Assembly: GCA_016795365.1 (NCBI GenBank)
Contig: JAEUHN010000040.1
Location: forward strand, 62,001-126,000
From: Verrucomicrobiaceae bacterium
GTDB lineage: Bacteria; Verrucomicrobiota; Verrucomicrobiia; Verrucomicrobiales; Verrucomicrobiaceae
Direction: 5' to 3'
DNA length: 64,000 bases
Shown: piece after piece, positions 286-29,669 of the stretch
Layout: every line of letters begins with the position of its first letter
Position numbering within the stretch: the first letter of the stretch is position 1
Notes under the pieces: model-generated
The model's database searches: none
Told to the model about the DNA's origin: nothing
Seen by the model: only the letters and a program-made list of their open reading frames with translations
Program-made: the position numbers and the translations under genes

Positions 286-3200
286 TCAGCGTGCGTCGAG
301 CTTCACGTAGTCGATGCCGACCATGTAGCTCTTCACCGCCTGCGGGTTGGTGCCCTTGATCGTGAAGGTGAGCTTGTGCTCGCCGACGTTGAGGTCGTGG
401 GTGCCGAGGTCGAGTTCGTCGGTGACGATGACGGCAGGGTAGTTGTAGCCGTCGAAGTCGGTGAGCACAACCTTGCCATCGAGCGCGATGTCACAGATGC
501 CGTAGTCGCGCGCTTTGGTGAGCAACGTCTTCACGGCGAACTTGCCGGCTTTCGCCACGGGCAGCGCGAGTGTGAGCGTGTTGCTGGGCTTCGCGCCGGT
601 CCACCAGAGCTGCGAGCCGCTGCTCCACTTGTTGCCGAAGCCGCCCATGCCTTGCGGACGGGTGCTGCCACCGGTCTTGGACAAGACCGTCATCGTCTCG
701 GCTTCGATCGCGCCTTCGACTTTGATCGCAGGACCACTTCGACCGGTGTCAGCCTTCGCGGGCGTGGCGTTGGTTTGCAGGTAAGCCACGAGCTGGCGGA
801 GCTGCTCCACGGGCAAGGCATCGAACAAGCCCTCGGGCATCGTGCTCACCTTCGACACGGTGCGCTTCTTGATCTCGCTCGTCGTGATCGTCTGCTCCAG
901 ACCACCGGGCATCGCGATGCGCACCGCGCTGGGCGAGTCCTCCTTCACCACGCCGCTGGCCACGCGTCCGTCCTTCAGCTCGAAGATGTTGAGCTGGTAG
1001 TCCTTGCCGATCACGGCGTTGGGATCGAGCACGTTGTCGAGCAAGTAATCGAGGTTACCGCGATTCGAGCCGGTGAGATCGGGGCCGACCTTCTGCCCTT
1101 CGCCAAACATCGCGTGGCACTGGCCGCACACGGCACTGAACAAGACTTTTCCTTTGGCTTTGTCGGCGGCAGCGAGATCGCCCTTCGTGAGCAACGCGCG
1201 GAACTTCTTCTTCCGCTCTTCCAGATCGGCTTTCGGTGCGTTGAGATCGCCGAAGGTGTCCTTCAGCAAGGCGGCCACGTCGGCGTTGTTCAAGGTCGCG
1301 AGCTGTCGCGCGAGGAAAGGCGAGAGCATCGTGCTTGGGATCGTCTTCGCCTTCACGGCGGTGAGCAGCGCCTTCGCACCCGAGGCGGTGGTGGCGAGGG
1401 TGTTGACGGCGTCTTGTTGTTCGATGACATTCATGTTGCCGAAGGTCATCACTAGCCATTTGGCATTGTCCGGGTGCTGGAGAACCGCAAGGCTCTGGAT
1501 AGCGGCCCGCTTGAGAGGTGAACCTGGGCCGGTGCCAGCGAGGATGTCGTGAAGGCCGAATTCCATCATCGTCGGGGTGCTGAACTTGGTCTGGGTGACC
1601 ACTCGAATGGCATTCAGAGCGAGAGGAACGTCGGCACGTTGATGGACGATGATGTCAGCGAAGTGCTGTAGCGTTGCCGTATCGCCCATGAAGGCTTCGA
1701 GTTCGAGTAAAGTCGCTTCGACTTGAGTCGAAGGTTCTTTGGATTCGGCTAAAGCCGAAACCACTTTGGTGCGCAGCGCTGCCCAGTTCTCCGGCTTGCT
1801 GATCTTGTTCCCGGCGCGGGCAGACTTCAGCACGGTCTCGAGCAAGGCATCGCGCATGGCCGCGTCCTTGGTCTCAGCGGCCACCGTGAGCAACCCGGTG
1901 CGTCCCGATTCCTCGGCACCCATGCGACGGTAGATGAACTCGGTGACCTTCGGCATCTTCGACACCTTCGCTAGTTCGAGTCCCGCCTTCGGGTCCGCGC
2001 CGACCAGTGGCTCGATGCCATACCAGATCAGCAACGGGATGTAGGGATCGTCTTTGTCCTCGCCGTGGGCGAGAAGGGCGCGAGCGATGGGGGTGCGCTG
2101 GTCGTTGGGGAGACGCTGGAGCGCGGAGGCCAGTTCGCGGCGGACGATGGGGGAAGGATCGCTCTTCGCCACTTCTGCCATCGCTTTCAATTCACTAGCA
2201 TCAAGGTCGGCGACAACTGCCGTCACGCCTTGGCCAGGTTTCAAAGGGTTTCCCGGGTTGTCGCCAAGAAACACTTCAAACGGCAGTGACAACTGCCGAA
2301 CAGCAGCCACGCGCACTCGTTCGTCCGCATCTTTTAGTTGCTTCCCAACAAGATCGGACGTCCTCGCCACACCGAGTGAGTAGGCGAGCCACATCTTTCT
2401 CAGGCTGGAAGAACCCGACGACAACTCGGCGAGGTCAAAAAGCTTGTTGTTGAGTGCTGTGCCGCGCACAACCCGTTCCATCAATACCCTCCGCGCCTGC
2501 CTTGAGAACCACTCGTTCTCCGTCTGCACGGCGAGCTTGGCGAGGGTCTCGTCGCTTTCCTTGGCGAGATCGAACGGGGCTTTCGGGAAAGGAGCGCGGG
2601 CGCTCTTGCCCGCTTCATTGTTCTTCGCGGCTTCGCCGCCATTTGTTTGAGTGCGGACAGGAGTGTCCGCGCTCCTTTCCACGCCTTCGCTGCCGACGTA
2701 GCTCACCTTGTAGATGCGTCCGTTGCTGCGATCCCAGATCTCCACCGCACCGCTGCCGCGATGGCACACCTGCTTGTCGCTCCAGTCACTGACATACAAG
2801 GAGCCATCGGGACCGACCTTCTGCGTGACAGGAATAAAATTCATGTCGTTGCTGCGCATGAAGTCGCTGCCGTGCTTGCCGATGTAGGTGCTGCCGTGCG
2901 GGTCGAGGTAATCGGTCACGAGGCGGTGGCCGTGCAGGTTGCCGAAGATGAGCCGGTTCCGATAGGTGGCCGGGAACTGGTTGCTCTGATAAATCGCGAG
3001 GCCGCAGTGCGCGTGGCCGCCGCCAGCGGCGTTGGTGTCGTCTTGCACGAGGCTGCCGTGATCGCGACCGCCCCAGTGTGCGTTGTCGCGGATGTTCCCG
3101 GCGTAGTGCGCGTGATCGGCGATGGTTTCGATATCCTCGTAAGTGTAGGGATTGAAGTGCTGCCCGCCCTGCCGGTGATAGCGAGCGCCAGGGACGATGT

Positions 3201-5283
3201 GATACAGATGCGGGATGACGCAGGCGGTGACGAAGAACTCGCCGTTCTGATCATAATCGAGGCCCCAGGGATTCGATGTGCCGTGCGCAAAGACTTCAAA
3301 CACATGCCGCACGGGATGATAGCGCCACACACCCGCATTCATGAGCGTGCGCTGCTCGTCGGGCGTGCCAGGCTTGCCGATCTTGGAATGCGTGAAGACG
3401 CCGTGGCAGCCGTAGAGCCAGCCATCGGGTCCCCAGAGGAAGGAGTTCAGCGTCTCGTGCGTGTCCTGCGTGCCGAAGCCGTCGAGGAGGGCGTAGGCGG
3501 TGAAGCTGAGGCCGGGGACTTTGGTCAAGGCAGTCAAGTTGGTCAAGATTGGGGTCAAGTCTTGCTTCGAGGCACCCTTGACCTCTTGACCCTTTGACTC
3601 CTTGACCAAGCCTACCGGCTTGTCCCCATCTCTCGGAATGAACATCAAATACGGAGCCGCGCCGATCCACACACCGCCGAAGCCAACCTCGATGCCACTC
3701 GCGAGATTGAGGCCTTCGCAGAAGGTCTTCTTTGTCTCGTAGGTGCCGTCGCCGTCGCTGTCTTCGAGGATGCGGATGCGATCCTTTCCGGCGCCGACTT
3801 CGCGGGGCTGCGGGTAGCTGTTGCCCTCGACAACCCAGAGGCGACCACGCTCGTCGAAGCAGAAGGCAATCGGTTGCACGATGTCGGGCTCGGCGGCGAT
3901 GAGGTCGGCTTTGAAGCCGGTGGGGAGTTGCAGGTTCTTCAGCGCGTCTTGCGGCGGCTGGCCGCGGGCATATTCGATCTGCGGCTTCAAGCCGGGGCCA
4001 TACATCTTCACGGGCTTCGCCTCGGCGGTCGAGTCGGTGCGCTTTTGCGTGAGGATGAAGACGCCGCTTTTGTTCGCGGAGACGATGTCGGGCAGGCCAT
4101 CACCGTTCACATCGCCCACGGTGACATCGACGCCGACGCTGCTGACGGTATCGACGAGGTGCGGGATGAAATCGACGCCGCCCTTGCCATCGCGCTTCGT
4201 CTCATACCAATAGACCACACGCGCACCGCGCTCGTCGGGATCGTGGCCGTTGTGCGCCCAGTAGCGTTTGCCGGTGACGATGTCCTGGATGCCGTCGCCA
4301 TTGATGTCTGCAAGTGCTGCAGCATGAGGCTGGGAGAAGACGATGCCGTAGTCGTTGTCGGCGGGGTTCTCGCTGGCGAGCATGACTTGCTTCCAGTTGG
4401 GCAGAGGAGCGCGGGCACTCTTGCCCGCATCGTCATGCTTCGCGGCTTCGCCGCCAGGATCAGAAGAGCGGACAGGAGTGTCCGCGCTCCCTTGTGGCTT
4501 GTTCTGCAAATACACCGCCACACCATAGCGATGTGCCTGCAGACTCGTGAAGACATCGTTGGTGCCGTTGCCGTCGAAATCATACGCGAACATCTGTGCG
4601 CCACCGCCGACACCGGCGGCGAAGTTGTGCTGCTCCCAGAGGCCGCTGTCCTTGTGCTCCCACCAGCGACGTGCTTCGAGGAGGTCGAGTTTCCCATCGC
4701 CATTCACATCGCCGACACCGAGGCCGTGCGTGAACTTCGCCACCTTCATGTCCTCACTGACGGCTACGAACGGCCACTTCTCGGTCGGCTTGTCCCAGTT
4801 CGGTGCGAACCAGCCGAACTTGCCGCCCGTGCTGCACACGATCTCCGGTTTGCCATCGCCGGTGATGTCGGTGAAGACGGGCGACTCGTTGTCCACCACG
4901 TCGGCGACGATGCTCATCGGCCACGGCTTGTCGTCGTGAACGCCGGAGTTCAGGTAGAGCCGCGCTTCTTTGCCAGGGAAGCCAAGGATGAGGATGTCGT
5001 TCTTCTTGTCGCCGTTGAAGTCATGGACGTAGGCGAAGAAGTTGTCCGAGTAGCCATTGATGCTGAAGATCTTCGGCTCGTAGTAGGCGTGCTTCTTTTC
5101 AAAGGCGGGGCCTTCCCACCAGAATGGACCCGCCACGATGTCGGGCTTGCCGTCGCCATTGATGTCGCCAATCGCCGCGCCCTCGGAGTAAAAGTCGCCG
5201 TGGAGCTGCTTGCGTTCCCAGGTGATCTGGGTGGCCGCGTGCAGCGAGGTGGCCGCGAAGACTAGAGCGAGGAGAACTTTCAT
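286..5283 (-). CDS. Giant secreted PVC-type cytochrome c dehydrogenase with FG-GAP, HEAT and C-terminal carbohydrate-binding-like region
   Basis: 1665 residues from the ATG at 5283, which gives a clean signal peptide (MKVLLALVFAATSLHAA); a TTG five codons upstream is less likely. Order of parts: signal peptide; FG-GAP/VCBS propeller with many DINGDGKPD-type calcium loops (about 20-440); PVC-type beta-propeller dehydrogenase (about 450-850, with FDERGRLWVVE and DSDGDGTYE); HEAT-like helices (about 900-1330); one c-type heme site CGQCH near residue 1385 with GPDLTGS after it; and a C-terminal beta domain beginning IEAETM, resembling a carbohydrate-binding module. Such proteins are exported in Planctomycetes and Verrucomicrobia. 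Oxidation of a sugar or polysaccharide is inferred and the substrate is unknown. The frame is interrupted by several translated palindromic repeats, described separately at 1709, 2209, 2588, 3521 and 4403. There is no operon partner. Confidence 0.88.
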   Translation of the reverse strand: MKVLLALVFAATSLHAATQITWERKQLHGDFYSEGAAIGDINGDGKPDIVAGPFWWEGPAFEKKHAYYEPKIFSINGYSDNFFAYVHDFNGDKKNDILILGFPGKEARLYLNSGVHDDKPWPMSIVADVVDNESPVFTDITGDGKPEIVCSTGGKFGWFAPNWDKPTEKWPFVAVSEDMKVAKFTHGLGVGDVNGDGKLDLLEARRWWEHKDSGLWEQHNFAAGVGGGAQMFAYDFDGNGTNDVFTSLQAHRYGVAVYLQNKPQGSADTPVRSSDPGGEAAKHDDAGKSARAPLPNWKQVMLASENPADNDYGIVFSQPHAAALADINGDGIQDIVTGKRYWAHNGHDPDERGARVVYWYETKRDGKGGVDFIPHLVDTVSSVGVDVTVGDVNGDGLPDIVSANKSGVFILTQKRTDSTAEAKPVKMYGPGLKPQIEYARGQPPQDALKNLQLPTGFKADLIAAEPDIVQPIAFCFDERGRLWVVEGNSYPQPREVGAGKDRIRILEDSDGDGTYETKKTFCEGLNLASGIEVGFGGVWIGAAPYLMFIPRDGDKPVGLVKESKGQEVKGASKQDLTPILTNLTALTKVPGLSFTAYALLDGFGTQDTHETLNSFLWGPDGWLYGCHGVFTHSKIGKPGTPDEQRTLMNAGVWRYHPVRHVFEVFAHGTSNPWGLDYDQNGEFFVTACVIPHLYHIVPGARYHRQGGQHFNPYTYEDIETIADHAHYAGNIRDNAHWGGRDHGSLVQDDTNAAGGGHAHCGLAIYQSNQFPATYRNRLIFGNLHGHRLVTDYLDPHGSTYIGKHGSDFMRSNDMNFIPVTQKVGPDGSLYVSDWSDKQVCHRGSGAVEIWDRSNGRIYKVSYVGSEGVERSADTPVRTQTNGGEAAKNNEAGKSARAPFPKAPFDLAKESDETLAKLAVQTENEWFSRQARRVLMERVVRGTALNNKLFDLAELSSGSSSLRKMWLAYSLGVARTSDLVGKQLKDADERVRVAAVRQLSLPFEVFLGDNPGNPLKPGQGVTAVVADLDASELKAMAEVAKSDPSPIVRRELASALQRLPNDQRTPIARALLAHGEDKDDPYIPLLIWYGIEPLVGADPKAGLELAKVSKMPKVTEFIYRRMGAEESGRTGLLTVAAETKDAAMRDALLETVLKSARAGNKISKPENWAALRTKVVSALAESKEPSTQVEATLLELEAFMGDTATLQHFADIIVHQRADVPLALNAIRVVTQTKFSTPTMMEFGLHDILAGTGPGSPLKRAAIQSLAVLQHPDNAKWLVMTFGNMNVIEQQDAVNTLATTASGAKALLTAVKAKTIPSTMLSPFLARQLATLNNADVAALLKDTFGDLNAPKADLEERKKKFRALLTKGDLAAADKAKGKVLFSAVCGQCHAMFGEGQKVGPDLTGSNRGNLDYLLDNVLDPNAVIGKDYQLNIFELKDGRVASGVVKEDSPSAVRIAMPGGLEQTITTSEIKKRTVSKVSTMPEGLFDALPVEQLRQLVAYLQTNATPAKADTGRSGPAIKVEGAIEAETMTVLSKTGGSTRPQGMGGFGNKWSSGSQLWWTGAKPSNTLTLALPVAKAGKFAVKTLLTKARDYGICDIALDGKVVLTDFDGYNYPAVIVTDELDLGTHDLNVGEHKLTFTIKGTNPQAVKSYMVGIDYVKLDAR
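1709..1767. repeat. 59-bp intragenic palindromic element, family 2 (copy 1)
   Basis: Two adjacent hairpins lie within matching outer ends: CTTCGACT/AGTCGAAG (1716-1733) and TTCGGCT/AGCCGAA (1744-1759), bounded by AAAGT and ACTTT. Read in the host frame it encodes KVVSALAESKEPSTQVEATL. A second copy of exactly the same length lies at 27914-27972; by hand alignment about 46 of 59 bases agree. Confidence 0.8.
2209..2298. repeat. Candidate intragenic palindromic insertion, single copy
   Basis: An 8-bp perfect inverted repeat GGCGACAA/TTGTCGCC (2209-2216 and 2258-2265), a 7-bp hairpin CGGCAGT/ACTGCCG (2281-2298) and an 11-bp direct repeat GACAACTGCCG (2212 and 2288) fall together in the HEAT region. 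The encoded stretch (VFLGDNPGNPLKPGQG) looks unlike neighbouring HEAT helices. Only one copy is seen, so calling it an insertion is an inference. Confidence 0.45.
2588..2678. repeat. 91-bp three-hairpin palindromic element, family 1 (copy A)
   Basis: Outer 26-bp arms (2588-2613 and 2653-2678) are inverted copies agreeing at 22 of 26 bases. Each arm folds on itself (for example GCGGACA/TGTCCGC) and a GCGGC-TTC-GCCGC hairpin sits exactly at the centre (2627-2639). It is translated in the host gene with the peptides SADTPVR, GGEAAK and AGKSARAP. Copies B (4403-4493) and C (27515-27606) share length and architecture. Confidence 0.9.
3521..3609. repeat. 89-bp intragenic palindrome built of GGTCAAG units, family 3
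   Basis: On the + strand four (G)GTCAAG-type units (3523, 3532, 3541, 3553) face four CTTGACC-type units (3577, 3585, 3593, 3601). The ends are a perfect 10-bp inverted repeat TTGGTCAAGG/CCTTGACCAA. It is read through in frame inside the propeller dehydrogenase domain, giving a Lys/Leu/Thr-rich linker. Confidence 0.8.
4403..4493. repeat. 91-bp three-hairpin palindromic element, family 1 (copy B)
   Basis: Same length and symmetry as copy A, with arms 4403-4428 and 4468-4493 and the central GCGGC-TTC-GCCGC hairpin at 4442-4454. It has the same orientation and the same encoded peptide pattern (SADTPVR, GGEAAK, AGKSARAP). It lies in the FG-GAP propeller region, about residues 263-293. Confidence 0.9.
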
Positions 5284-5436
5284 GGTGGTGGGATGCAAAC
5301 GCTATCAGACGTGGGCAGCATCAGACAAGATTTGTGTCTAATCTGACAGCAGCCTTCGTGGGGCAGGACTAGCGATGTTATGCCCACAAATAATGCACTA
5401 CCAAGCGAGGCAAGTTACGCCACCGGATGTCATCTG

Positions 5437-25008: not shown

Positions 25009-28000
25009 CTACCCTTTTAGCGTCATCAGGTAGCTGATTAGATCCGTCGCCTGCTGATCGTTCAAGCCATCGATCAATCCCTCGGGCATCAGTGAGCGAC
25101 GGATGTAGCGCGTGCTGCGCACATCCTTCTTCGCGATGCGGCGATCCTGCACGCCGGGCTGGCGCACGACGAAGGCTTCCTTGTCTTCGCTGACGAAGAG
25201 CGCGTCCACGATGTCGCCCGACTTCAGTTCCACGCGGAAGATGCGATAGCCGGATTCCATCGCCGCGTTTGGCGTGAGGATGTTGCGCAGCACGCCTTCA
25301 AGTCCCATCGCCCCGGCGCCACTGAGGTTCGGACCGATCTGGCCGCCTTCGGGTCCGATCATGTGGCAGGCCTTGCAGATCATCGAGAGCGCCTTGCCTT
25401 GAGCGAGGCTGCCTTTCTTCAAGTCGAGCGTGCTGAGATGCGCGAACTTCTTGTCGAGCGCATCAGCTTGCTCAGCAGTGAGCAGCGGCGGCGTGTCGAT
25501 GGCCTTCGCGAGACGAGCACCCGTCCGACGAGGCTGTGGCTGGACCTTGGAGGGGACAAAGGTGCCTTGTCTTGGCTCAGAATCACTCATGACAATATCT
25601 CCGATCACTTTAATCCACGTTTCTCGCTCGAGCTTGCTGCCGGCATTGAGCACGCGGTCAAAGTTTTGCCGAATCTCCTGAGCCGTGCGCTCCTTCTTCC
25701 AGATGCGGAATTCCGTCATCACGCCTTCCGTGCCTTTCTTCGGACCGCTCCAACCAATGCGGCAGTTCTCCCACTTGTCCGGCGCGGGCACTTTCGACAC
25801 GGCATCGAGTTCGCCGTTCTGGTAGATCTTGATGAAGCCTTTCTCGTCGCGCGTCACAGCGATGTGTGTCCACAAGTCCGGTGTCATCGGCTTCTTCGCC
25901 ACCGCCACGTCATGCAGTTTGGGTCCGGCGAACACGCGGAACGTCGAGCCAAAGAAGTTCATCTCCACACCACCGGGCACGCCGAGGATGTCGTCCTCGT
26001 TGCCGATGCCGGGCGCGAGCTTGATCCAGGTCTCGACGGTGAAGGTGCCATCCAATGTGATCTTCGAATCAATCCACGCCTCCTCGCTGCCATCAAAGGC
26101 GAGCACATCGTGGAAGACGTGGCCGAGGCTGGCCATGAGCTTGTTCAGCTCCGCATCGTTGCCGAGCACGAGCGACAAACGCTCGGCTGTCGGCCCATCG
26201 AGATCGGTCTTCGGAATCTTGTTCGACGCGAGCGCAGCGACGATGGCCTTCGCGCCGGGCTTCGATGCGGAGAGCGCATTCAAAGCCGCATGTTGCTGTG
26301 CGCTGCTAAGCGTTGGATAAAGTGCGAAAAGCTGCTCGGCGGCGCTCGGATTCTTCGAGACGGCGAGAGCTGCGAGGGCTTCGTCGCGGATTGTCGGCCC
26401 AAATGTCGAGAGACTCACAAACAGCTCTGCCGCAGTGGAGCGAAGCTCTTTGAGAGCTTGAAGAAGCGAAACCATGGTTGCTTGCGAAAGCCGGTCATCA
26501 GGCGTGAATTCAACGCGGCGCGTTGCACGATCCCATAACTTTTCTTTAAGCTGAGTCAGCGCTGTGACGAGATCGCTCTCCAACGACGCCAACTGAAACC
26601 CGCCGATCAAACTCACGCTCAGCGCGCGCTCGTCATCCTTGCCACTGAGCAATGCCTTCGCCGCCTCGCTGAGCAAGGGCGCGATCTTCGTGGGATCTAG
26701 CTTGGTCTTCTGCGCGAGCAGCTTCTCCGCCACCGACGTGCGCGACTTGGGATTCGACAGCAACGCCTTCAAGGCATCGCCGCAACCCGCCTCCTCCGGG
26801 AACTGCGCGAGGCGCAGGAGTTCTTCATCGTTCGGTGCGCGATCCAACTGCGGCAGCAGCTTCGCCACGCGCGATGCACTCGCTTTCGGTTCCAGCGCGA
26901 GCGACGCGAGCACACGTGCTTCGACGGGAAGCTTCGCGGCCTCATCGGTGTCGAGGAACTTCACGACCACATCAGGATGCCGTTCCAGGAACATGCGCAC
27001 GAGGAAGCGCTCGAACTCACGATCATAGGCTTCGCCAACGGGGATGGGCTTGCCGGTGCGACCGGGGGCGGTGGGCTGTGTTAGGGAGGGTTTGGCGAAA
27101 GAGAGAAGTGACGACAGAACGCCCAAATGATCTGCTCGCTTGTCTTGAAGATATTTTGCAAGTCTCTGGATAGCAGCTTGCCGGACCTCTGGCGCTTCAC
27201 TAGTGGGCACTTCGCCAAAATCAGCCTCAAACTCAAAAGTCGAATCGGGAGTATCCGCAATCACCGTTCGCAGTAGCGGCGGTGAAGCAGACTTCTCAGG
27301 TGACGAAACAGAATTAGGTGCGGTCCAGTGAGCTTGGACACGTTTGGATACACTCTGGTTTCCATCATTTACCAGCTTCCAAAGACGCTCGCTTCCTTCG
27401 ATGTCACCTCGATCTGCCAACGTCTGCCACGCCAGATGCGCCCGCGCCGTTGGCTTCGTCCCGAGCAACGCGATCAACTCCTCCGTGCTCAGCTTCGTGA
27501 AGTCGGGGATCGTCATAGGAGCGCGGACACTCCTGTCCGCTTCTTTAGAATCAGGCGGCGAAGCCGCGTTGCTGTTCGATGCGGACAGGAGTGTCCGCGC
27601 TCCTTTCGCGTCGTCGCTTGCCTTCGGCTTCACGCGCCAGATGCGACCGCGAATCTTGTCACGATCTGGATGATTCCGCGGCACCTCGTTGTGACTGATG
27701 ATCTTGTTATACCAGTCCACGATGTAGAGGCAGCCATCGGGACCTTGCGTCATGGCGACGGGACGGAAGAACGGATCGTCGCAGGTCACGAGGTCGGCGG
27801 CTTGCTCGTAGCGCCAGCCGTTCGGGGCGCGCTGCGGATCTTTGCGACTGTCTTCGCGATGCATCGCGAGCGTTTGCACCTTCGAGATGATCGGGTTGGC
27901 GACGAACATGCACAACGTGGGTTCGGCTTTAGTCGAATCTTTCTGACCTTCGGCTGAAGCCGAAGCCACTTTCTTCAACTCCCCCTCGCCGAGCGCGAGT

Positions 28001-29595
28001 CCGCTCAGTCCCGTGCCACCCATCTTGAAGTCGGGTGTCTGCACCGGGAACTCCGGCTGGTAGCTCTTCCGCAACGCCTCCATGCCTCCCGGATAATACG
28101 CATACTCGTGGAAGGGCATGACCGGGTAGCCGTAGTCGTTCGCTTCCTGGATGAAGGCCTCGCCTTCGCCCGTGATCACGAGGCCCCAGATGTTGTTCGG
28201 GCCGAGGCTGGTGACTTCGAACTCACTGCCATCCGGCCTCATGCGCGCCATGCTGCACTTCGGGTAGTCGATGACATTCGCGTCCTCGCCGGGCTTGTGA
28301 ACCTTGCTGTTGTTGAACAGGCCCTGCGCCATCCAGATCCAGCCGCCGGGCGCACGCGTGAACTGATGCGGAAACAAATGCGAGTCCTGCACGCCGAAGC
28401 CGGTGAGGATCACCTTTGATTCGTCGGCCTTGCCATCGCTGTTCGTGTCCTTCATCAACAGGACGTCGTGACCGTGCAGCACGTAAGCGCTGTCGCCATT
28501 GCCCCACGGCAGCAGGCCGAGCGGAATGGCGAGACCATCGGCGAAGACAATCGGATTGGTGAGTCCGCCCGCGGGAAGCGTCGTATTCAACGCCTCGCGC
28601 GGATAGACCAGCACCTTGTCCTTGCCCTTCGCGGCATACACCGCCTCAGCAGCGGCGGGGTTCTCATTGCCATCGACAGGATACTCCAGCGCGGTCTGCG
28701 TCCACAGACGGCCGCGCTGATCGAAATACACGCTGACGAACTTGCCGATGCCGGGCGATTCCTTCACCACGAGTTCAATCTCGTAGCCCTCGGGCAGGTG
28801 GAACTTCTTGATCTGTTCTTCAGCGGTCAAAGGCGTGCCCTGGACGTTGTTGTAGCTGATGTCGCGCTTCGCTGGCTTGCCTGCATCGGCTTGCGTCTTC
28901 TTCGGCGGAGCGACCTTGGCACGCGCGGCATCAATGCCACCGAGCGATTGCCAGGTTGGTGCGTTCGGCGTGGCGGGCAGTTCTTCGATGGTCACGTCTT
29001 TGACCTGCACGAGACAAACCCCGCCGCTGTGAACCTGCGGTCCGATCAGACCATCGAGCGCGACGTTCTTGTCCTCCTCGACGTAATCCATGCACAGCAC
29101 GCCATTGATCCAGGTTTGAATGCGCGGCCCTTCTGCACGGATGCGATACTCGTTCCAGCCGAAGACATCGATCACTTTGTCGAGCGCGGTCTGCTGCTCA
29201 GGCGTGGGAGCCCAGATCACCTTGTTGCGACGGAACTCATCATAAATCTTCCCGAACCAACCCGCGCCACAGTCCACCTGATAGCCGCACATGTGGGCTG
29301 TGCCCGGCACACGCAGACTGCGGATTTGAATGCCGCTGTTCAACATTCCCGTCTTCGGATCGCCGCTGACCTTGATCTTGAGCTTCAGCTCGAAGTTCTG
29401 GTAGCTCTTCTTGGTGCAGATGAAGTAGTTCTCTTTGATCTTCTCCGTCGTGGAGCCGCCGGTGATCATGCCGTCTTCGACACGCCAGATCGCGGGATCG
29501 AAGTCCCAGCCGTCGAGCGACTTGCCGTCAAACAGAGAGACCGGCTGCGCGAAGGCAGCCGTCGAGAGCAGGAGAAGAGCGAGGAGTGAACGCAT
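25009..29595 (-). CDS. Giant secreted PVC-type cytochrome c dehydrogenase with N-terminal DUF1080 and LamG-like domains
   Basis: 1528 residues from ATG 29595, which gives a clean signal peptide (MRSLLALLLLSTAAFAQ). Order of parts: DUF1080/3-keto-disaccharide hydrolase domain (about 20-215, starting SLFDGKSLDGWDF); PVC-type propeller dehydrogenase (about 255-700); HEAT helices (about 720-1125); a LamG/concanavalin A-like domain (about 1140-1320, with TFTVETWIKL); and one cytochrome c site CKACH near residue 1405 followed by GPNLSGAG. DUF1080 relatives bind or cleave glycans, and at least some act on 3-keto-sugars, so oxidation and cleavage of a polysaccharide is a reasonable inference. Two palindromic repeats (27515 and 27914) are translated within it. 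An AraC regulator gene lies 74 bp upstream on the same strand. Confidence 0.88.
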   Translation of the reverse strand: MRSLLALLLLSTAAFAQPVSLFDGKSLDGWDFDPAIWRVEDGMITGGSTTEKIKENYFICTKKSYQNFELKLKIKVSGDPKTGMLNSGIQIRSLRVPGTAHMCGYQVDCGAGWFGKIYDEFRRNKVIWAPTPEQQTALDKVIDVFGWNEYRIRAEGPRIQTWINGVLCMDYVEEDKNVALDGLIGPQVHSGGVCLVQVKDVTIEELPATPNAPTWQSLGGIDAARAKVAPPKKTQADAGKPAKRDISYNNVQGTPLTAEEQIKKFHLPEGYEIELVVKESPGIGKFVSVYFDQRGRLWTQTALEYPVDGNENPAAAEAVYAAKGKDKVLVYPREALNTTLPAGGLTNPIVFADGLAIPLGLLPWGNGDSAYVLHGHDVLLMKDTNSDGKADESKVILTGFGVQDSHLFPHQFTRAPGGWIWMAQGLFNNSKVHKPGEDANVIDYPKCSMARMRPDGSEFEVTSLGPNNIWGLVITGEGEAFIQEANDYGYPVMPFHEYAYYPGGMEALRKSYQPEFPVQTPDFKMGGTGLSGLALGEGELKKVASASAEGQKDSTKAEPTLCMFVANPIISKVQTLAMHREDSRKDPQRAPNGWRYEQAADLVTCDDPFFRPVAMTQGPDGCLYIVDWYNKIISHNEVPRNHPDRDKIRGRIWRVKPKASDDAKGARTLLSASNSNAASPPDSKEADRSVRAPMTIPDFTKLSTEELIALLGTKPTARAHLAWQTLADRGDIEGSERLWKLVNDGNQSVSKRVQAHWTAPNSVSSPEKSASPPLLRTVIADTPDSTFEFEADFGEVPTSEAPEVRQAAIQRLAKYLQDKRADHLGVLSSLLSFAKPSLTQPTAPGRTGKPIPVGEAYDREFERFLVRMFLERHPDVVVKFLDTDEAAKLPVEARVLASLALEPKASASRVAKLLPQLDRAPNDEELLRLAQFPEEAGCGDALKALLSNPKSRTSVAEKLLAQKTKLDPTKIAPLLSEAAKALLSGKDDERALSVSLIGGFQLASLESDLVTALTQLKEKLWDRATRRVEFTPDDRLSQATMVSLLQALKELRSTAAELFVSLSTFGPTIRDEALAALAVSKNPSAAEQLFALYPTLSSAQQHAALNALSASKPGAKAIVAALASNKIPKTDLDGPTAERLSLVLGNDAELNKLMASLGHVFHDVLAFDGSEEAWIDSKITLDGTFTVETWIKLAPGIGNEDDILGVPGGVEMNFFGSTFRVFAGPKLHDVAVAKKPMTPDLWTHIAVTRDEKGFIKIYQNGELDAVSKVPAPDKWENCRIGWSGPKKGTEGVMTEFRIWKKERTAQEIRQNFDRVLNAGSKLERETWIKVIGDIVMSDSEPRQGTFVPSKVQPQPRRTGARLAKAIDTPPLLTAEQADALDKKFAHLSTLDLKKGSLAQGKALSMICKACHMIGPEGGQIGPNLSGAGAMGLEGVLRNILTPNAAMESGYRIFRVELKSGDIVDALFVSEDKEAFVVRQPGVQDRRIAKKDVRSTRYIRRSLMPEGLIDGLNDQQATDLISYLMTLKG
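27515..27606. repeat. 92-bp three-hairpin palindromic element, family 1 (copy C, inverted)
   Basis: Arms 27515-27540 and 27581-27606 match those of copies A and B. The central hairpin is GCGGC-GAA-GCCGC (27555-27567), the reverse complement of the centre in A and B. Relative to its host gene the element is therefore inverted. It is still open and encodes a different peptide (GARTLLSA, NAASPP, ADRSVRAP). Confidence 0.9.
27914..27972. repeat. 59-bp intragenic palindromic element, family 2 (copy 2)
   Basis: The same 59-bp architecture as 1709-1767, with hairpins TTCGGCT/AGTCGAA and TTCGGCT/AGCCGAA and ends resembling AAAGTGG/CCACTTT. In the host frame it encodes KVASASAEGQKDSTKAEPTL, closely matching the peptide of copy 1. 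Confidence 0.8.
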
Positions 29596-29669
29596 GATAG
29601 GCAGAAGAACGCCGCTCATTGCAGCAGGTTCGCACGATCATGTCCACATGGAGGTGACTGAAACGCACC

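Follow-up and report, generated by a model that had tools for sequence, protein, structure and literature searches.

The palindromic elements of Rickettsia (RPEs) are about 150 bp long, and we know of no dedicated transposase for them. They lie in frame as palindromes within unrelated genes, where they encode a recurrent peptide (Ogata 2000; PMC10969869), and RPE-4 and RPE-6 are counted among the CGTC repeats, which have no dedicated transposase (PMC3733652). The REPINs described in Pseudomonas fluorescens together with their RAYTs (REP-associated tyrosine transposases) are extragenic and reach high copy numbers (Bertels and Rainey 2011; PMC3116915). In Opitutus terrae, intragenic REP dimers encode 20–30 residues; intragenic GTAG repeats are most numerous in this species, GTGG heads predominate among its GTAG-20 elements, different REPs occupy about one site in Xanthomonas recB, and flexible linkers are suggested to tolerate intragenic REPs (Di Nocera 2013; PMC3733652). 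The TnpA-REP (REPtron) systems of E. coli, S. maltophilia and Marinomonas recognize a GTAG head, GTGG being a less efficient variant tested with one enzyme (PMC8266576). Here, a stretch of 64,000 nucleotides (the window) from the 6.7 Mb genome of a Verrucomicrobiaceae bacterium (G000) was analysed, in which an element resembling these occurs twice within genes.

The paired palindrome and its copies

Both copies are 59 bp in length and are read through in frame by their host genes. The features are as follows.

286..5298, minus strand: host gene 1, FG-GAP / DUF7133 / HEAT-like / cytochrome c protein, 1670 aa
1709..1767, minus strand: REPIN copy 1, 59 bp, peptide KVVSALAESKEPSTQVEATL, in frame in host gene 1
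1744..1767, minus strand: REP unit 1a, AAAGTGGTTTCGGCTTTAGCCGAA
1709..1732, plus strand: REP unit 1b, inverted partner, AAAGTCGCTTCGACTTGAGTCGAA
25009..29619, minus strand: host gene 2, 3-keto-disaccharide hydrolase domain / DUF7133 / laminin-G-like / cytochrome c protein, 1536 aa
27914..27972, minus strand: REPIN copy 2, 59 bp, peptide KVASASAEGQKDSTKAEPTL, in frame in host gene 2
27949..27972, minus strand: REP unit 2a, AAAGTGGCTTCGGCTTCAGCCGAA
27914..27937, plus strand: REP unit 2b, inverted, degenerate, AACGTGGGTTCGGCTTTAGTCGAA

Each copy consists of two inverted 24-base units, AAA-GTGG-(T/C)-TTCGRCTnnAGYCGAA, with a 7-bp hairpin stem in each unit; one unit of copy 1 has AAAGTCG in place of AAAGTGG, and one unit of copy 2 is imperfect (AACGTGG, TTCGGCTTTAGTCGAA). 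Both copies are read on the minus strand in codon phase 0 with AAA as the first codon. The length, frame and recurrent peptide proposed in the first-pass annotation all hold. Its description of two adjacent hairpins is exact for copy 1 alone, because the two halves of copy 2 pair with each other and the lowest-energy fold is one long hairpin, a fold that is open to any inverted REP pair. The single-strand fold energies of the copies are lower than after dinucleotide shuffling (z −3.6 to −6.5).

The copy 1 peptide is located C-terminal to the DUF7133 match and ahead of the cytochrome c match of host gene 1, whose HEAT-like label comes from the first-pass annotation and is absent from the Pfam result, and the copy 2 peptide is located within the DUF7133 match of host gene 2. 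In an AlphaFold model of host gene 2 based on a seven-sequence alignment, the peptide (about residues 310–329) is mostly coil; because pLDDT is below 50 over residues 281–328 and the alignment is shallow (mean 59.6), the model gives no more than a hint of a loop. Another palindrome family, G(C)GGACAnnnnTGTCCGC with a GAGC head, is also present in both host genes (window positions 2653, 4468, 27523 and 27581), encoding for example SADTPVR and GKSARAP, and its hairpins also border a Y1 transposase at G000:C30:2583 (L024).

Further copies in the genome were found by a DNA search with an 81-base query (E down to 4e-8), by a pattern search with the core TTCGGCTnnAGCCGAA (eight places versus none for the reversed control; 18 versus one when three mismatches were allowed) and by a covariance model built from an alignment of seven copies, which recovered the remaining copies at E values of 1e-20 to 1e-3 and one weak half-copy at 0.18. 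The DNA search, the two pattern searches and the covariance model gave the same tally of about ten copies, namely seven full copies, one longer and degraded copy (C46) and two half-elements. In eight of the ten, the reading frame of a gene runs through the element: the two window genes, a DUF1549/1553-type gene with two copies, a sulfatase gene and a C18 lectin-like/DUF7133-type gene, with the half-copies in another HEAT/cytochrome c gene and a DapA-like gene, the names beyond the two Pfam-searched host genes being taken from a reading of the translations. The C25 and C46 copies are best taken as extragenic.

The covariance-model search proposed in the first-pass annotation showed that the element recurs in 33 of 77 relatives. 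An exact 23-base pattern was found in 26 stretches when 84,980 species genomes were scanned, all in Verrucomicrobiota records and mainly in Verrucomicrobiaceae, including Prosthecobacter. The structure is that of a REPIN, with two inverted REP units, each a head tetranucleotide followed by a palindrome, and a spacer; the head is GTRG in 90% of units and is preceded by AAA in 90%. The stems vary in a compensatory manner, with pairing of 0.90 in unique in-gene units compared with 0.72 when the arms are shuffled. A literature search on Prosthecobacter palindromic repeats and transposases returned no paper.

The transposase flanked by the element

At three loci in Prosthecobacter and other Verrucomicrobiaceae (L093, L103 and L111), copies in opposite orientation lie on both sides of one transposase gene, with hairpins identical to those of the window element, and the intact locus has a full REPIN on each side. 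The identical hairpins on both sides mark this RAYT as the probable cognate mobilizer. Its L103-type protein matches the NCBIfam model 'REP-associated tyrosine transposase' (NF047646) with an E value of 1.7e-21 and 76.7 bits against a curated cut-off of 80, matches Pfam Y1_Tnp weakly, and contains HLH and YRRYI motifs in its translation; the flanked gene is thus predicted, at a score just under the cut-off, to encode a Y1/HUH transposase of the REP-associated type. The ends of its ORF extend through the hairpins, giving a protein terminus of KVASALAEVLQQ... and a start region of SAKAEATF.

The relatives of the cognate RAYT at 100%, 69% and 62% identity each carry GTGGCTTCGGCT or closely related GTAGCTTGGGCT REPs, those of the next closest, the G008 RAYT at 69%, being the same as the cognate's. 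RAYTs at about 40–62% identity have other REPs in an unchanged layout, and the REPs of the more distant RAYTs are GTAGCTTGGGCT in G040, GTAGCCCAGTTGCGCC in G001 and G025, GTAGTCCAGTTGCGCC in G029 and GTGGTCCGCACAG in G066.

Among the ten Y1 transposases checked in the window's genome there is no close cognate, the best being 42% identical with different REPs; the copies in this genome are therefore probably old, immobile residents. As candidate cognates, the C20 RAYT was ruled out since it carries GTAGCTTCGAGTG REPs, the C30 Y1 transposase since it carries the first palindrome family of the window, and two further Y1 transposases since they carry their own GTAG REPs. The L017 and L018 RAYTs (G000:C30:62891 and C38:50660) have the GTAG REPs CCCGGCCTT..AAGGCCGGG and CCGTGGGTT..AACCCACGG, and tandem repeats lie beside the C20 RAYT (L043 1–577; G000:C20:61500–62076), two frames of which give degenerate repeats such as ESGEGSLREVKSRVELG. 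In the copy-rich genomes G028 and G047, whose assemblies are incomplete, no cognate RAYT was found at the threshold used, and a plasmid collection yielded only distant RAYT relatives of less than 60% identity.

Orthologous sites and competing explanations

As the first-pass annotation had suggested, the orthologues were compared for presence and absence, and both window sites are empty in many of them. The host gene 1 site holds full copies in G000, G001, G039 and G028 (decayed in its second hairpin), a single collapsed hairpin in G008, and other hairpin-like inserts in G004, G011, G014, G005, G017 and G024; it is empty in G009, G016, G020, G023 and G027. The host gene 2 site is empty in 16 of the 30 orthologues aligned. 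It holds the family of the window in G000, G008, G011, G014 and, decayed, in G030, GTAGTTCGGGCT REPINs in G010, G040 and G046, the GTAGTCCAGTTGCGCC family in G045, G031 and G001, and still other inserts in G027 and G039, with G038 left unclassified. The C18 gene is a third site with a similar pattern, empty in many orthologues and with other fillings elsewhere.

Two of the replacing REP families were confirmed as repeated families and two match REPs flanking RAYTs. Pattern searches recovered GTAGYCCAGTTGCGCC repeatedly in G000, G001, G045 and G025 and as a single near-match in G031; for GTAGTTCGGGCT, there are repeats in G040, G046 and G010 and no match in G000, G009 or G020. Since different REP families lie at one linker, several of them appear from the alignments to have inserted there independently; some are tied to RAYTs. 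Three genomes (L101, L211 and L227) share a site occupied by mosaic REPINs, in which one half is GTRGTTCGAGCT and the other belongs to the GTGGCTTCGGCT family. The DNA around the host gene 2 site is about 91% identical to that of G011, which belongs to another genus (L216/L239), and the congener G001 has a different REPIN family at this site with 74% protein identity; the similarity to G011 may possibly reflect transfer of host gene 2 (25009–29619).

Among the sampled copies, 14 lie at one site and nine at another in DUF1549/1553-type genes, eight at the C18-type site and four in one shared linker of different sulfatases, counts that pool inherited copies with separate insertions. The whole dimer is present or absent at orthologous sites, a pattern consistent with mobility as a dimeric unit. 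Exact junctions cannot be read against the empty sites because these are too diverged, and the insert lengths modulo 3 are inconsistent with one fixed insertion unit, so no exact unit is claimed.

The element is repeated and dimeric, its presence at orthologous sites is patchy, and RAYT-flanking repeats are identical to it; we consider it highly probable that both window sites hold one REPIN family, a non-autonomous element of two inverted AAA-GTGG units that was spread by a RAYT and kept in tolerant linkers. The shared mobile origin proposed in the first-pass annotation, which would account for the common length, frame and consensus of the two copies, is borne out by recurrence in unrelated genes, by the empty orthologous sites and by the exact hairpins flanking the RAYT of relatives. 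The REPIN would move in single-stranded form through the action of its cognate Y1/HUH transposase, the RAYT that sits between two REPINs of the window's family in relatives. An insertion within a gene would persist only where both hairpins leave the frame open and where a tolerant linker takes up the roughly 20 extra residues. Since other REPIN families occupy the same linkers in other genera, these linkers may be recurrently tolerated landing sites. No transposition event was seen in the genomes compared.

The inserts might now be kept by selection, either for the peptide or for a DNA or RNA hairpin. The sister species G001 has the element at five of the same sites, and there the elements are 92% identical and the flanks 76% (Fisher p 1e-11); the REP units differ at 4% of bases (9/240), compared with 29% in the spacers (14/48; p 6e-7) and 24% in the flanks, figures that come from one species pair with bases treated as independent. 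At the C18 site, the spacer is largely changed and the hairpins are nearly unchanged. A neutral insert inherited by simple descent would not give this pattern, for which conversion, re-insertion at the same spot and selection on the hairpin are all possible. However, conversion or re-insertion accounts for the same data from this single pair, the insert is widely absent from close orthologues, its phase varies, and unrelated peptides occupy the same host position in other genera, all of which make maintenance by selection unlikely.

Repeated occupancy of a linker could instead reflect the target choice of RAYTs, that is, a hotspot of sequence or structure, and not what the protein tolerates. 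Different families with similar AAA-GTRG heads share a linker, and the flanks show weak preferences; however, the 130 in-gene flanks examined for an insertion-target motif have no strong motif in common, the RAYTs concerned are only about 40–60% identical, and the sites are length-variable linkers, as selection after insertion predicts. Target choice is thus also doubtful as the cause. More tentatively, though with somewhat better prospects, a fixed set of linkers may act as long-lived REPIN 'docks' that unrelated families enter in succession, where they replace one another or undergo conversion in place; if so, divergence between species would affect spacers and host gene and leave the hairpins nearly identical, and a protein would repeatedly gain new peptides of 18–25 residues.

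The gene context bears on the remaining alternatives. At most 72 of about 115 distinct copies lie within an ORF of at least 200 aa running through the element, our definition of 'in gene'; this is an upper estimate, a few such ORFs (for example L047 and L178) being probably spurious. Random positions in the same loci fall in such ORFs in 85% of cases, so that genes are under-represented among the copies, as expected if many insertions have been removed. About a third of the sampled copies are extragenic, and the element is thus not gene-specific. The in-gene phases are 46/21/5; a TTTAG loop would yield a stop in phase 2, and with the exception of one degenerate half-copy all phase 2 copies have TTCAG or TTGAG loops. 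In-gene copies use five of nine phase/length combinations, partly as a consequence of the definition, and extragenic lengths modulo 3 (18/13/12) show no clear bias. Of the 43 extragenic copies, 32 have a long ORF terminating within 25 bp, which agrees with other REPs (PMC3733652) and could suggest an RNA-level regulatory hairpin, such as a terminator, attenuator or riboregulator, in place of a mobile element; given the in-frame position of most copies within genes, the RAYT association and the inconsistent gene context, this is very improbable. The least credible reading, that of a conserved structural Ala/Glu-rich linker with a fortuitous palindrome, agrees with the Ala/Ser/Glu-rich peptides and their fixed positions within gene families but is refuted by the empty orthologues at all three sites, with unrelated hairpins in others, and is further opposed by the same DNA outside genes and beside a RAYT and by the use of three reading phases; a family-wide motif whose synonymous codons break the palindrome, named in the first-pass annotation as the counter-case, is the opposite of what was found.

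Any role for the encoded peptide is putative. With its transposase and its empty and differently filled orthologous sites, the family provides a natural before-and-after series of proteins in which to study the gain of peptides from miniature mobile DNA, and bears on whether the host tolerates REPINs as passengers or retains them. For annotation and structure modelling, variable inserts in DUF7133, DUF1549/1553-type and sulfatase proteins of Verrucomicrobiaceae can be mobile DNA.

Comparison with known systems

The element shares with the P. fluorescens REPINs an inverted REP pair, a predicted single-stranded hairpin, a RAYT, many copies and a variable spacer. It differs in its few copies per genome, about two thirds of them in genes and in frame, and in a head that is mostly GTGG after AAA; extragenic location is a description of the first REPINs and not a structural criterion. 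Like TnpA-REP, the enzyme, recognized here from its sequence, would be a transposase for a tetranucleotide plus hairpin whose gene is flanked by REPs, although the head is GTAG there and mostly GTGG here. The likeness to RPEs, in-frame intragenic palindromes with a recurrent peptide, is one of functional analogy; the element is 52–66 bp long with GTRG heads and a RAYT. A classical MITE has a DDE transposase and a fixed-length target-site duplication. In the present flanks there is no strong motif, and the junctions are unreadable against diverged empty sites.

The GTAG-20 elements of Opitutus terrae are likewise from Verrucomicrobiota, with GTGG heads and head–head dimers in ORFs that encode 20–30 residues; the present family, from Verrucomicrobiaceae, is probably a different one. 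Since intragenic REP dimers had already been reported (Di Nocera 2013), the REPIN family is new but its setting is known. To the account of Verrucomicrobia in the text consulted (PMC3733652), the empty sites and the switching of families at one site are additions; also new are the cognate RAYT, the orthologue tests and the reuse of the same linkers by unrelated families.
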